Positions 45,575-48,644 of a DNA stretch of 64,000 nucleotides are shown piece by piece. A program made the position numbers and the translations under genes. The DNA comes from Clostridioides sp. ES-S-0010-02. GTDB lineage: Bacteria > Bacillota > Clostridia > Peptostreptococcales > Peptostreptococcaceae. The stretch lies in NCBI GenBank assembly GCA_020641055.1, contig CP067345.1:140001-204000 (forward strand), given 5' to 3'. How positions within the stretch are numbered: position 1 is the first letter of the stretch; every line of letters begins with the position of its first letter. Under the pieces are notes generated by a model. The model worked only from the letters and a program-made list of their open reading frames with translations. It did not search any database and was not told where the DNA came from.

Positions 45575-46054
45575 ATGAATATAAGTATAGTTGTAGTAGG
45601 TAAAATTAAAGAAAAATATTTAAAGTTAGGTATTGATGAATTTAGAAAGAGGCTTTCTAAGTATTGCAAGTTGGAAATTATAGAGTTAGATGATGAAAAA
45701 GCTCCCGAAAATTTAAGTGCTAAGGAAATGGAAATTATAAAAGATAAAGAGGGAAAGAAGATTTTAGGTAAGATAAAGCATAACAGCTATGTTATAGCTC
45801 TTGCTATTGATGGAAAGAATTTGTCTTCTGAAGAACTGGCTAAGACTATGAGCGATTTAGCAGTTAGAGGTAACAGTAGTCTTTGTTTTATAATTGGAGG
45901 TTCTTTAGGGCTTTCTGATGATGTTTTGGATAGGGCTGATTATAGATTATCTTTTTCTAGGATGACTTTTCCTCATCAGATGATGAGGTTGATATTGTTA
46001 GAGCAGATTTATAGGGCTTATAGGATAAATAATGGAGAACCGTATCACAAGTAA
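45575..46054 (+). CDS. rlmH: 23S rRNA (pseudouridine1915-N3)-methyltransferase RlmH
   Basis: 159 residues, the SPOUT family, with FIIGGSLGLSDDVL and the C-terminal RAYRINNGEPYHK that is conserved across bacteria. TTAGGAG precedes the ATG. The 3' end is the well-known integration site of SCC elements in staphylococci, and here the last 20 or so bases recur 2.6 kb downstream, so its C-terminus may be encoded by an incoming element. Confidence 0.95.
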   Translation: MNISIVVVGKIKEKYLKLGIDEFRKRLSKYCKLEIIELDDEKAPENLSAKEMEIIKDKEGKKILGKIKHNSYVIALAIDGKNLSSEELAKTMSDLAVRGNSSLCFIIGGSLGLSDDVLDRADYRLSFSRMTFPHQMMRLILLEQIYRAYRINNGEPYHK

Positions 46055-46060
46055 GGGAGC
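46034..46060 (+). repeat. putative attachment site (attL) at the 3' end of rlmH
   Basis: 27 bases covering the codons for GEPYHK-stop and six bases beyond. A second copy stands at 48613-48639, with 25 of 27 identical. Confidence 0.75.
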
Positions 46061-46105
46061 TATAACTTTACTATTTTGATAATAGACCATAATTATAATT
46101 GTGCT

Positions 46106-46140
46106 ACATAGGTATATCTAAACTTAGATATACCTCTTTA
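46106..46140 (+). terminator. hairpin after rlmH, possible terminator
   Basis: AGGTATATCTAA and TTAGATATACCT form a 12-bp stem, followed by CTTTATTATG. It overlaps the start of the next, longer palindrome. Confidence 0.65.
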
Positions 46141-46194
46141 TTATGTATTTAATTATCTAAATTTAAATAGTATAATTAAATACATAATAAAGAG
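46134..46194. repeat. 23-bp perfect inverted repeat upstream of the OLD nuclease gene
   Basis: Arms 46134-46156 and 46172-46194 are exact complements with a 15-base spacer. It begins 29 bases before the start codon on the inner side and lies just inside the element boundary. It could be an operator, a terminator, or an end structure of the element. Confidence 0.75.
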
Positions 46195-46222
46195 TAAAAT
46201 TAATATTATTAAGGGGGATCCT

Positions 46223-48001
46223 ATGAGTACAATTCATATTAACGGCATATCGATAAAAAATTATAGATCATTTAGAGATGAGAAAGTAATTGTATTTCCT
46301 GATGAACAGTATAATAAACCAGTAGCTATAGTAGGATATAATAATTCTGGTAAAACTAATTTATTAAATTCAATATTATTTGGTATTACTGAAAAGTATG
46401 TAACTAAAGATACATTTAAATTAGATGATTTTCATAATAGAGATATAAATAATATACCTAATATATTTACAGGAATAACTGCATCTAAAGAAGTTAAAAA
46501 GGATGGTAAATATGCAGACCTAACAGGGTATCATTTTCTTAATATTAAATTAGATGGATATGAGATTGAAAGTGCTAAAATAGAGTCATATAAAAATATG
46601 GAGCGAAACGATAAAAATTATGAAGCTTTTGGGGCTAATAAATATTATAAAATCTTTTATGTTAATTTTCATGAGATAAAAAAAGAGATATCAACAAAGA
46701 AAACTAGTTGGGGAAATGTTACTTCATTCTTAGCAAAACATATAAAAAATATAGTTGATTCAGATAAAGAGATGCTAGGAAAGAAAGTAAACTTTAAAGA
46801 TGATATAAAAAAATCAACAGAAAATGTTATTGAAGACTCTAATCTGCATAAATTTTTAAATAAAATACAAGAAAATTACTCTAGAAATTTACGAGATAAT
46901 AATTGTAATATCGAGTTTGGTTTGCCGGAATATGAAGACATTTTTTTAGAAATGATGTTTAAAATTGGTTTAAATGGAGATTTAGAAAACTTAGTACCAA
47001 TTGATCATTTTGGGGATGGATACATATCAATGTTTGTAATGGCGGTAATTCAGGCTATTGCAGAAGAAAATGAAGGAGACAGGTGTTTATTTATATTTGA
47101 AGAACCTGAAAGTTTCCTTCATGAAAATCATCAAGAATATTTTTATAAGGCTGTGTTATGTGGACTTGCGGAAAATGGTCATCAGGTAATATACACAACA
47201 CATTCTGACAAAATGATAGATATATTTGACACAAAAGGCCTAATAAGAGTTGAGTTTGATGAAGAACTTAAACAAACAGAAATTAAGTACAATAAAGCTA
47301 AAGAAGATTTTTTATGTGAAAGCAATGAACTTGTAGATAAAATAAAGGATTATAATGATTACATAAAGATAATTGAACCAAATTTAAACAAGATAATATT
47401 TAGTCGAAAAGTTATTTTAGTAGAGGGGCCAAATGATATGATGGTTTACAAAGAAGCTATTAGAAATAAGATTTTAGATAAAACTGGTGATATAAAATTT
47501 GCGGATACATATTTAAATTTTAATAATATATCAATCATACCTCATCATGGAAAAATAACAGCCTTAGTTTTAATAAAGTTATGTAAGCACCTTGGTATAG
47601 AGTATTTTGCCATAAATGATTTTGATTTTGAATCGGATGTTGTAAATAAATTAGCTAAGCTTTATACCGAAGAGGAATATAAAGAAAGTAAACTTTACTT
47701 AGAGGAAATAAAGACATTAGTATCTAAAAATATTAAAGGTGAAGAAAGAAGTGAAACAACTAAAAAAGGAATGCTAACAACTAATTGGCAATTAATAAAT
47801 GAAGCTGGTATAGATCAAATTCATTTCAATATACCTAAGTTAGAGTGTGTAATAGGATATAATAGTAATGATAAAGATAGTATAGGTATATGGAAAACTA
47901 TTAATGATATTAAAGAATTTAAAGAAGATTTATTTCCACAAAAACTAATAGATTTTTTAGAACTTGATAAAATCGAATGTAGAACTAAAGTTAACATATA
48001 A
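46223..48001 (+). CDS. OLD-family ATP-dependent endonuclease (AAA ATPase + TOPRIM)
   Basis: 592 residues. The N-terminal ABC/SMC-like ATPase has Walker A GYNNSGKTNL (about 38-47), Walker B CLFIFEEPESFLH (about 288-300) and a switch His in YTTHSDKM. The C-terminal TOPRIM nuclease has ILVEGPNDMMVY (about 396-407) and DFDFESD (about 465-471). AAGGGGGA precedes the ATG. OLD proteins include phage P2 Old, GajA of Gabija and other defence nucleases. No UvrD-like partner (GajB) or reverse transcriptase is adjacent, so a stand-alone OLD or pairing with the following small gene are the options. Confidence 0.88.
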   Translation: MSTIHINGISIKNYRSFRDEKVIVFPDEQYNKPVAIVGYNNSGKTNLLNSILFGITEKYVTKDTFKLDDFHNRDINNIPNIFTGITASKEVKKDGKYADLTGYHFLNIKLDGYEIESAKIESYKNMERNDKNYEAFGANKYYKIFYVNFHEIKKEISTKKTSWGNVTSFLAKHIKNIVDSDKEMLGKKVNFKDDIKKSTENVIEDSNLHKFLNKIQENYSRNLRDNNCNIEFGLPEYEDIFLEMMFKIGLNGDLENLVPIDHFGDGYISMFVMAVIQAIAEENEGDRCLFIFEEPESFLHENHQEYFYKAVLCGLAENGHQVIYTTHSDKMIDIFDTKGLIRVEFDEELKQTEIKYNKAKEDFLCESNELVDKIKDYNDYIKIIEPNLNKIIFSRKVILVEGPNDMMVYKEAIRNKILDKTGDIKFADTYLNFNNISIIPHHGKITALVLIKLCKHLGIEYFAINDFDFESDVVNKLAKLYTEEEYKESKLYLEEIKTLVSKNIKGEERSETTKKGMLTTNWQLINEAGIDQIHFNIPKLECVIGYNSNDKDSIGIWKTINDIKEFKEDLFPQKLIDFLELDKIECRTKVNI

Positions 48002-48188
48002 CGTTATCATTTTAAAAAATATTTAAAAATTTCAATTTATAAATAGTAAAACCATTATATTATGAATATTAAAAGAGGTATTATTTTCACAATATAAAAT
48101 GTAAGTTAACAAATAAGTAAACTAATTTTCTACTTTAAAAATAGTAAGATAACTATAATATAGGCTAAGATAATGGGGGAGTGAGTGA

Positions 48189-48587
48189 ATGTATGTAACA
48201 AGTAAAATAAAAGAAAAGCTTAAGAATAATGGAGGAATTGCAAAAATAAAGCTATTAAAAGGAAATAGATACTTTAACGTAATACTAAAAGAAGATGGAG
48301 TATTAGTTGATAATTTAGATAAAGAAGCATTATTAGAATGGAAAGTATTTGAGAAAACAATAGAACTATTAGAAAACAATGGTGGAACTGCATTAAAAGG
48401 AGATGCTATGGGATTCAAGTTAGGAGAAGGAAAATTACCCATAAATTCAATAGAAGGATATGTTGCAAAAGAAGTATATGATAAATCCATAGGAGAGAGT
48501 GTGTTTAGAAGAATCACACCAATAGTCAATATTCTAATTTGGGTAGGAATATGTGAGAATGGCAGAGGAAAACTAATATTAAAATAA
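48189..48587 (+). CDS. hypothetical protein within the rlmH-bounded segment
   Basis: 132 residues, not recognised. A GGGGGAGTG site precedes the ATG. N-terminal half: short strands and lysine-rich turns (AKIKLLKGNRYFNVIL). C-terminal half: FEKTIELLENNGGTALKGDAMGFKLGEG and RRITPIVNILIWVGICENGRGKLIL, suggestive of a compact mixed fold. There is no signal or membrane helix. It lies directly upstream of the second att copy and could be an accessory or regulator of the nuclease. Confidence 0.7.
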   Translation: MYVTSKIKEKLKNNGGIAKIKLLKGNRYFNVILKEDGVLVDNLDKEALLEWKVFEKTIELLENNGGTALKGDAMGFKLGEGKLPINSIEGYVAKEVYDKSIGESVFRRITPIVNILIWVGICENGRGKLILK

Positions 48588-48588
48588 A

Positions 48589-48644
48589 AACGTGCTCTGT
48601 AGAGTACGTTACGGAGAACCATATCATAAGTAAGGGAGCACGTT
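48589..48644. repeat. inverted repeat around the second att copy
   Basis: AACGTGCTC (48589-48597) and GAGCACGTT (48636-48644) bracket the att-like sequence. Such flanking inverted repeats are also seen at SCC att sites. It might also act as a terminator for the 132-residue gene. Confidence 0.65.
48613..48639 (+). repeat. putative attachment site (attR), copy of the rlmH 3' end
   Basis: 27 bases that would again encode GEPYHK-stop; differs from 46034-46060 at two third-codon positions only. No other part of rlmH is repeated here. Confidence 0.75.

Follow-up and report, generated by a model that had tools for sequence, protein, structure and literature searches.

The stretch of DNA analyzed here (the window, 64,000 nucleotides) comprises positions 140001 to 204000 of the single contig of Clostridioides sp. 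ES-S-0010-02 (genome G000; C1:140001-204000). At the 3' end of its rlmH gene lies a segment resembling a staphylococcal cassette chromosome (SCC) element, the kind of element behind methicillin resistance in staphylococci; the segment is bounded by direct repeats and carries a gene for an OLD-family nuclease and a small second gene. The features of the locus are as follows, with attachment sites abbreviated att and with G001 denoting a sister genome of the same genus and G035 a genome of the same family.

45575..46054, plus strand: rlmH (Pfam SPOUT_MTase, E = 6e-61), the 3' end of which is the chromosomal attachment site
46034..46060, plus strand: att copy 1, the left junction, formed by the last codons of rlmH (GEPYHK-stop) and GGGAGC
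46055..48633, plus strand: cassette with a repeat-to-repeat length of about 2,579 bp (start-to-start spacing, 2579)
46110..46135, plus strand: 11-bp hairpin with a T-rich stretch after it (fold -13.1 kcal/mol, z -5.5; stem kept in G001)
46134..46194, no strand: perfect 23-bp palindrome upstream of the OLD gene (arms 46134-46156 and 46172-46194, 15-nt loop)
46223..48001, plus strand: OLD-family ATPase/TOPRIM nuclease of 592 amino acids (Pfam AAA_15 and OLD-like_TOPRIM; PADLOC Old)
48189..48587, plus strand: gene for a 132-amino-acid protein, 72% identical to a G035 gene located between a CcrB-like recombinase gene and the terminal att
48590..48612, plus strand: right-end arm of the cassette (GCTCTG...GTTAC), of a type common to att copies other than that of rlmH itself
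48613..48639, plus strand: att copy 2, the right junction, containing TATCATAA

The direct repeat consisted of the last 21 bases of rlmH and the six bases that follow, with 25 of 27 positions identical between the copies. Both copies encoded GEPYHK-stop; TATCATAA was present in copy 2, and copy 1 had TATCACAA. Only these two sites matched a degenerate 24-base att pattern (≤2 mismatches) in the 4,259,110-base genome, and the pattern read backwards had zero matches across the whole genome; chance was therefore excluded as a source of the repeat. The segment had two features of an SCC element, integration at the 3' end of rlmH and flanking direct repeats, and its SCC-type ends enclosed no ccr gene, as in pseudo-SCC elements. 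No PF07508 recombinase was found in the window, and the five matches in the genome lay elsewhere. A sequence-only reading of the window had described the repeat, the SCC-type site, the OLD nuclease with a small neighbor, and the lack of ccr on the segment, and all of these were borne out. The strong inverted repeats that it had also pointed to were real in the form of the perfect 23-bp palindrome (RNA fold, z = -11). As an end of the element, the palindrome was rejected; it does not define the element, because it is not kept intact in G001. The hairpin at 46110..46135 is probably a new rlmH terminator carried in by the cassette. A megablast search of phage sequences with the locus gave no match.

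The OLD protein matched the PADLOC Old model (E = 4.8e-37) better than the best GajA model (E = 3.9e-19). The motifs GYNNSGKT and LFIFEEPE and residues E401, D466, and D468, which we take to be Walker A, Walker B, and the TOPRIM residues, respectively, were present, and the three residues and the cores of the Walker motifs were invariant in an alignment of 10 OLD sequences. There was no second large ORF (open reading frame) between the repeats, so no GajB UvrD-like helicase lies beside the OLD gene there as in Gabija systems; the sole other gene, that for the 132-amino-acid protein, leaves OLD without a GajB/UvrD or retron partner between the repeats, as in Class 1 (genes beyond the repeats and retron RNAs were not searched for). 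The predicted product would be a stand-alone ATPase-nuclease of the Class 1 type that protects against phage through ATP-controlled DNA cleavage, and the family to which it belongs makes a role in phage defense of the host likely. In the excerpts seen of a 2023 review (PMC10568477), P2 Old is given as the sole Class 1 OLD known to block phage; the abstract of a 2026 study adds Escherichia coli YbjD as a second with antiphage phenotypes. As in the Class 1 proteins of that review's excerpts (P2 Old and Thermus scotoductus OLD), the window's protein combines an ABC ATPase with a TOPRIM domain, and no second large gene lies between the repeats; it differs from them, as they are described there, in riding on an att-bounded cassette.

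Relatives of the OLD protein were found at 36 loci (49 to 74% identity) in Bacilli, Flavobacteria, and other groups. Neither rlmH nor the gene for the 132-amino-acid protein was found near any of these 36 relatives (flanks of ≤8 kb), and OLD was therefore regarded as independent cargo. Those in Flavobacteria (L054-L061, L064, and L066) were 56 to 60% identical, which suggests wide transfer of the window's OLD type.

The site was then compared across 71 genomes of the window's family, the Peptostreptococcaceae, 69 of which had a detectable rlmH. The att pattern occurred somewhere in 53 of the 71 genomes and in two or more copies in 33, and the backwards control had no match in any of them. Regions downstream of rlmH were fetched at 39 loci (883 kb; a nonrandom sample of the 71, with many picked for numerous pattern matches) and scanned with a 44-column att matrix at a site score of at least 8. 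This yielded 135 sites in the orientation of rlmH, 39 of which were the ends of rlmH itself, versus 7 in the opposite orientation; the reversed and the complemented sequences of the same regions yielded 0 and 0 sites. Two or more att copies stood in tandem and in the same orientation in 27 of the 39 regions, with the highest numbers in G085 (20 copies within one 59-kb stretch), G084 (12), G019 (10), G020 (8), G035 (7), and G009 (6). The 96 att-to-att intervals had a median length of 2,227 bp, and 57 held either one or two ORFs (≥80 amino acids). Of the 123 ORFs (≥110 amino acids) that mechanical calling gave in the arrays of six genomes, 97 had the orientation of the array. Cargo families, among the first 25 of 171 and the first 25 of 131 listed, included ABC and MFS transporters, MarR and other regulators, TelA, nitroreductases, and the defense-like AbiU, TIR, and AAA_21 proteins. 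Beyond the family, an exact 18-base rlmH tail was present in at least three copies in some other genomes of the order (198 scanned, with two control matches in all), including G111, G119, G132, G136, and G172. Repeats of the rlmH tail also occurred far from rlmH, at G024:C1:240849-254002 and G083:C5:2131619-2155535.

Recombinases of the type expected for an SCC system were associated with this site. The CcrB profile gave nine matches of 305 to 430 bits in 8 of the 71 genomes, and all nine were linked to rlmH or att. Four of the genes lay downstream of rlmH on the same contig, at 47 bp in G091 and 92 bp in G013 (both antiparallel), 9.0 kb in G010, and 12.2 kb in G065; each of the other five was followed within 0.5 to 2.5 kb by an att (scores of 59 in G035, 60 in G093, 28 in G021, and 26 and 34 in G022). 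The next-best matches, in G031 (258 bits) and G080 (216 bits), had no att with a score of at least 8 in the fetched 15 to 16 kb, and these recombinases fell outside the Ccr clade. An interrupted match in G083 (226 bits) lay on a contig that lacks rlmH and had att copies several kilobases downstream of it; the repeats distant from rlmH in this genome accompany this interrupted gene and a short rlmH-like fragment. For reference, the Staphylococcus aureus protein scored 1137 bits against NCBIfam CcrB, and its neighbor scored 825 bits against CcrA. A midpoint-rooted tree built from 40 proteins placed seven of these nine CcrB-like recombinases in a clade (99/98) that was sister to S. aureus CcrB (100/97), with those of G013 and G091 branching next (93/85); a first tree, of 38 proteins, agreed.

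One ccr/cch element was in G035. Its order was a Cch-like DUF927 helicase (225 bits; cutoff, 700), two small ORFs, the CcrB-like recombinase (390 bits; cutoff, 900), the gene for a 132-amino-acid protein, and att, with the left end off the contig or not found. The rlmH of this genome (L036) is split into two parts that lie in different frames, perhaps through a genuine break in the gene or through an error in the sequence. In G093 and G021, the order ccr, one gene, att was the same as in G035, with different genes. Elements in G010, G021, and G065 had D5/P4-type helicases in place of Cch, and the Cch-specific domain PF18662 was above its cutoff in 3 of the 71 genomes.

The terminal gene of the G035 element ties the window's cassette to these ccr elements. 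Good matches to the 132-amino-acid protein were found in only 2 of the 71 family genomes, the window's genome and G035; the latter also had a third, weak match (28% identity, with stops). The protein had no Pfam or PADLOC match at E = 0.1 and no NCBIfam match at 0.01. At the DNA level, window positions 48207-48642 were 78.7% identical to the G035 sequence from this gene through att. Given this identity and the 72% identity of the gene, the cassette in the window ends on the right as a ccr element does. As it has that end and no ccr, the segment is therefore a pseudo-SCC cassette that would be movable only in trans. The gene may be the passenger end of a helper element or a recombination accessory. 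It was not found in viral contigs, and a plasmid search returned one distant relative, in Pseudomonas luteola, beside a TM0106 RecB-like nuclease, which would fit a defense accessory.

Intervals between att sites were shared across genera. A 4,896-bp interval was 99.8% identical between G024 and G073 (genera g18 and g23), of which the rlmH regions were 75.8% identical and of which nothing else in the fetched stretches aligned. The shared block began 16 bp ahead of the core at its left att and extended to the penultimate core base at its right att, and it was the first interval after rlmH in G024 (L032) and the second in G073 (L123). In G024, it encoded TetA(P) (853 bits; cutoff, 750) and a tetracycline ribosomal protection protein (964 bits; cutoff, 775). 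Another cassette, of about 2.5 kb and 88 to 97% identical, was common to nine genomes of five genera (G009, G014, G015, G020, G034, G035, G068, G069, and G070) and in G009 encoded TelA (toxic anion resistance) and a Halogen_Hydrol-family protein; this sharing was detected with sequences cut at att, a procedure that forces alignment ends to att. Uncut regions gave 59 cross-genus matches outside rlmH (≥400 bp, ≥78% identity), and the ends of these matches lay within 60 bp of att in both partners in 16 of 59 cases on the left (random mean, 0.16) and in 9 of 59 on the right (0.05).

Within the genus, the sequence after rlmH was variable over 2.4 to 13.7 kb in all eight genomes, up to a common flank near window position 59,786, the first gene of which looks LysR-like by eye. 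A genome-wide search found the OLD gene in only two of the eight (G000 and G001), at the rlmH site in both, and the other six had different contents between rlmH and the common flank. The sequence-only reading had named the same OLD gene and both repeats in every sister species as the outcome that would count against it, and this was not what was found. G000 and G001 were 95% identical at rlmH and 93 to 94% identical in the common flank; their OLD cassettes were 83.7% identical in nucleotides (OLD protein, 84.5%), and the second gene differed, being that for the 132-amino-acid protein in G000 and an HNH endonuclease gene in G001. An occupied and empty pair was found for another cassette: G003 had a 3.8-kb insert with a second att, and in G006 and G007 a phosphotransferase system (PTS) operon directly followed the rlmH tail, with the 8.5-kb flank aligning at 90% identity, starting with the first att core base. 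G004 had the same operon as these three, with 0.4 kb and a weaker att before it.

Other parts of the window were also inspected. The whole 13.7-kb variable region was considered as one att-bounded element and rejected, since no att-like site was present at its far right junction near 59,786. Positions 48640-49800, after att copy 2, held only short ORFs and one weak match to PADLOC PDC-M55C (E = 6e-4) and are possibly a decayed cassette. ORFs at 48838-49300 were tried as a GmrSD remnant, and both tblastn with the GmrSD/HEPN pair of G009 and Pfam gave nothing. Positions 50856-59000, which fill the G000 variable region, appeared by eye to be a mannose-type PTS-like operon with a regulator, unlike the PTS-like operon that G003, G004, G006, and G007 share. 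Just before rlmH, at 43404-45506, a PTS EIIC domain and an EAL domain were combined in one protein.

The att sites themselves had a consistent architecture. The core was a partial dyad centered between the G and the T of AAGTAA: across 123 copies with scores of at least 20, a fraction of 0.45 of positions paired over 15 bases on each side, versus 0.15 to 0.34 when the center was shifted by up to 4 bases. The consensus of 84 att copies other than those of rlmH included an additional arm on the left, approximately CTCCnTTG....GTTACGGAG, which the consensus of the 39 rlmH copies lacked. In the window, the pair ACGTGCTC/GAGCACGT was present around att copy 2 only, where the fold was not significant (z -1.2). 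Large serine recombinases join a longer cassette-side site to a shorter chromosomal site (attP/attB), and by analogy the extra arm would fit such a pairing. Crossover would probably take place in the AAGTAA center of the 18-bp core. In the mechanism proposed, an autonomous ccr element would supply a CcrB-like large serine recombinase in trans, and this enzyme would join a circular cassette, once in the cell, to the rlmH tail. The GEPYHK-stop end would be rebuilt at each new junction, so that rlmH would stay intact and cassettes would stack in one orientation.

On this evidence, the segment at 46055-48633 is very probably a recombinase-less SCC-type cassette at the 3' end of rlmH, which a CcrB-like enzyme would move in trans and which carries a likely antiphage OLD nuclease. 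The earlier view of a pseudo-SCC defense cassette is thereby kept as to its ends, its lack of ccr, and its defense-type gene, with phage defense itself a putative function. Several results weigh against this interpretation. None of the 71 family genomes reached the NCBIfam CcrB cutoff of 900 bits, and the 305-bit line was drawn after the list of matches had been seen. The best CcrB-profile match in the window's genome was 141 bits, at 2,237,602, and four of the genome's five own recombinases fell outside the Ccr clade (the fifth was too short for the tree); since there is no ccr in this genome, present-day mobility is putative. The 119 sites that went into the att matrix came from the same 39 regions that were scanned with it, and in 12 of these regions the copy belonging to rlmH stood alone. 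The cargo of the arrays is mixed and not mainly defense. Both ends of a shared stretch were at att in only 1 of the 59 cross-genus matches within 60 bp and in 2 within 200 bp, so most shared stretches have diverged or been rearranged. An exact empty site, with a single rlmH tail followed by GGGAGCACGTTAGTC and without 46061-48639, was not seen among the genomes compared. Finally, the occurrence of OLD with an HNH gene in G001 at 83.7% identity implies that the history of OLD at the site may be old or repeated.

Some of these points would suit an old SCC-like integration from which ccr was deleted, leaving an immobile remnant that kept both att copies by chance. The window's genome has no ccr, OLD sits in the same place in the sister G001, and the right end is that of a ccr element. 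Such a remnant is nonetheless unlikely: the six other members of the genus have other contents at the site and no OLD gene, the genus has an occupied and empty pair for another cassette, the att copies are still identical at 25 of 27 positions, and the OLD frame is open with its motif residues kept. A further explanation is that the conserved att and rlmH sequences allowed the segment to be acquired from another array by homologous recombination or transformation, with no recombinase acting in the lineage. It would account for repeats that are conserved across genera and for cross-genus matches that mostly have at most one end at att, but a repeat of 18 to 44 bp is short for homologous recombination between lineages that are 76% identical at rlmH. 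The 4.9-kb block of G024 and G073 ends at the core in both, and the recombinases linked to the site belong to the family expected; exchange of this kind alone is thus considered improbable. That the second rlmH tail is a chance or functional repeat, such as a gene-conversion duplicate, with no mobile element involved, might be suggested by the same six residues being encoded in both copies. This is already contradicted by the lack of control matches, the orientation bias, the arrays, the occupied and empty pair, and the recombinase linkage and is given almost no credence. The trans-mobilized SCC-type cassette is therefore retained, and the evidence supports its extension from a single locus to one instance of a family-wide array system with CcrB-like recombinases of its own.

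Islands at rlmH outside staphylococci are already known, and several systems are close to the one described here. With SCC, pseudo-SCC, and composite SCC elements, the family loci share insertion at the 3' end of rlmH, direct repeats of its last codons, the TATCATAA core, tandem stacking, and the occurrence of ccr-less pseudo-SCC forms; the CcrB-like recombinase and DUF927 Cch-like helicase of G035 correspond to the S. aureus ccrAB/cch region. They differ in that their recombinases score well below the NCBIfam CcrB cutoff, in that each element at the loci read has one CcrB-like gene, in that P4/D5-type helicases replace Cch in three other ccr elements, and in having cassettes of about 2 kb, arrayed with as many as 20 att copies, with no ccr in the window's genome. 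Integron arrays consist of tandem, same-orientation cassettes, mostly of one or two genes, with recombination sites between them and exchange across genera. The family arrays are analogous to integrons in each of these respects, and they differ in having a gene end as their site and in being linked to serine recombinases (no search was made for an integron integrase).

In Enterococcus, SCC-like islands at rlmH (ECC) have been reported, and the portions seen of that article (PMC6222049) give TATCATAA as a motif common to SCC and ECC sites. As described there, ECC shares with the family elements the rlmH site, an att of about 50 bp with TATCATAA, and variable cargo; it differs in having paired ccrAB and, in one example, a length of 32 kb, versus a single CcrB-like gene and small tandem cassettes in the family. 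Pol-SSB primase islands occur downstream of rlmH in several Bacillota, some as tandem composites, according to the available parts of another study (PMC10061031), in which those of Clostridioides difficile and Clostridium perfringens are in ssrA and not in rlmH. In these islands, too, the last ~12 bp of rlmH are present a second time, the arrangement is tandem in some cases, and the cargo is conflict related; the same parts describe neither arrays of recombinase-less mini-cassettes nor an rlmH case in the window's family. Among the matches listed in a search of openly licensed PMC full text, none described arrays of cassettes at rlmH in this family.

These results extend SCC-style gene gain, known from staphylococci and enterococci, to the window's clostridial family, where it has a finely divided, array-like form that resembles integrons. 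The balance of evidence tips slightly toward a broader proposal, in which the family runs an integron-like cassette system at the rlmH tail: a CcrB-type recombinase would move cassettes across genera, most of them of a few kilobases with one or two genes and no recombinase, stacked in one orientation beside rlmH, and rare autonomous ccr elements would serve as shared helpers; the TetA(P) cassette of G024 and G073 would be one such case. If this is true, staphylococcal SCC would be one large-cassette branch of a wider rlmH cassette system. The natural occupied and empty sites, the defined core, and the candidate helper recombinases with their own terminal gene make the origin and mechanism of cassette chromosomes testable outside staphylococci, and rlmH becomes a place to look for strain-specific phage defense and resistance genes in this family.

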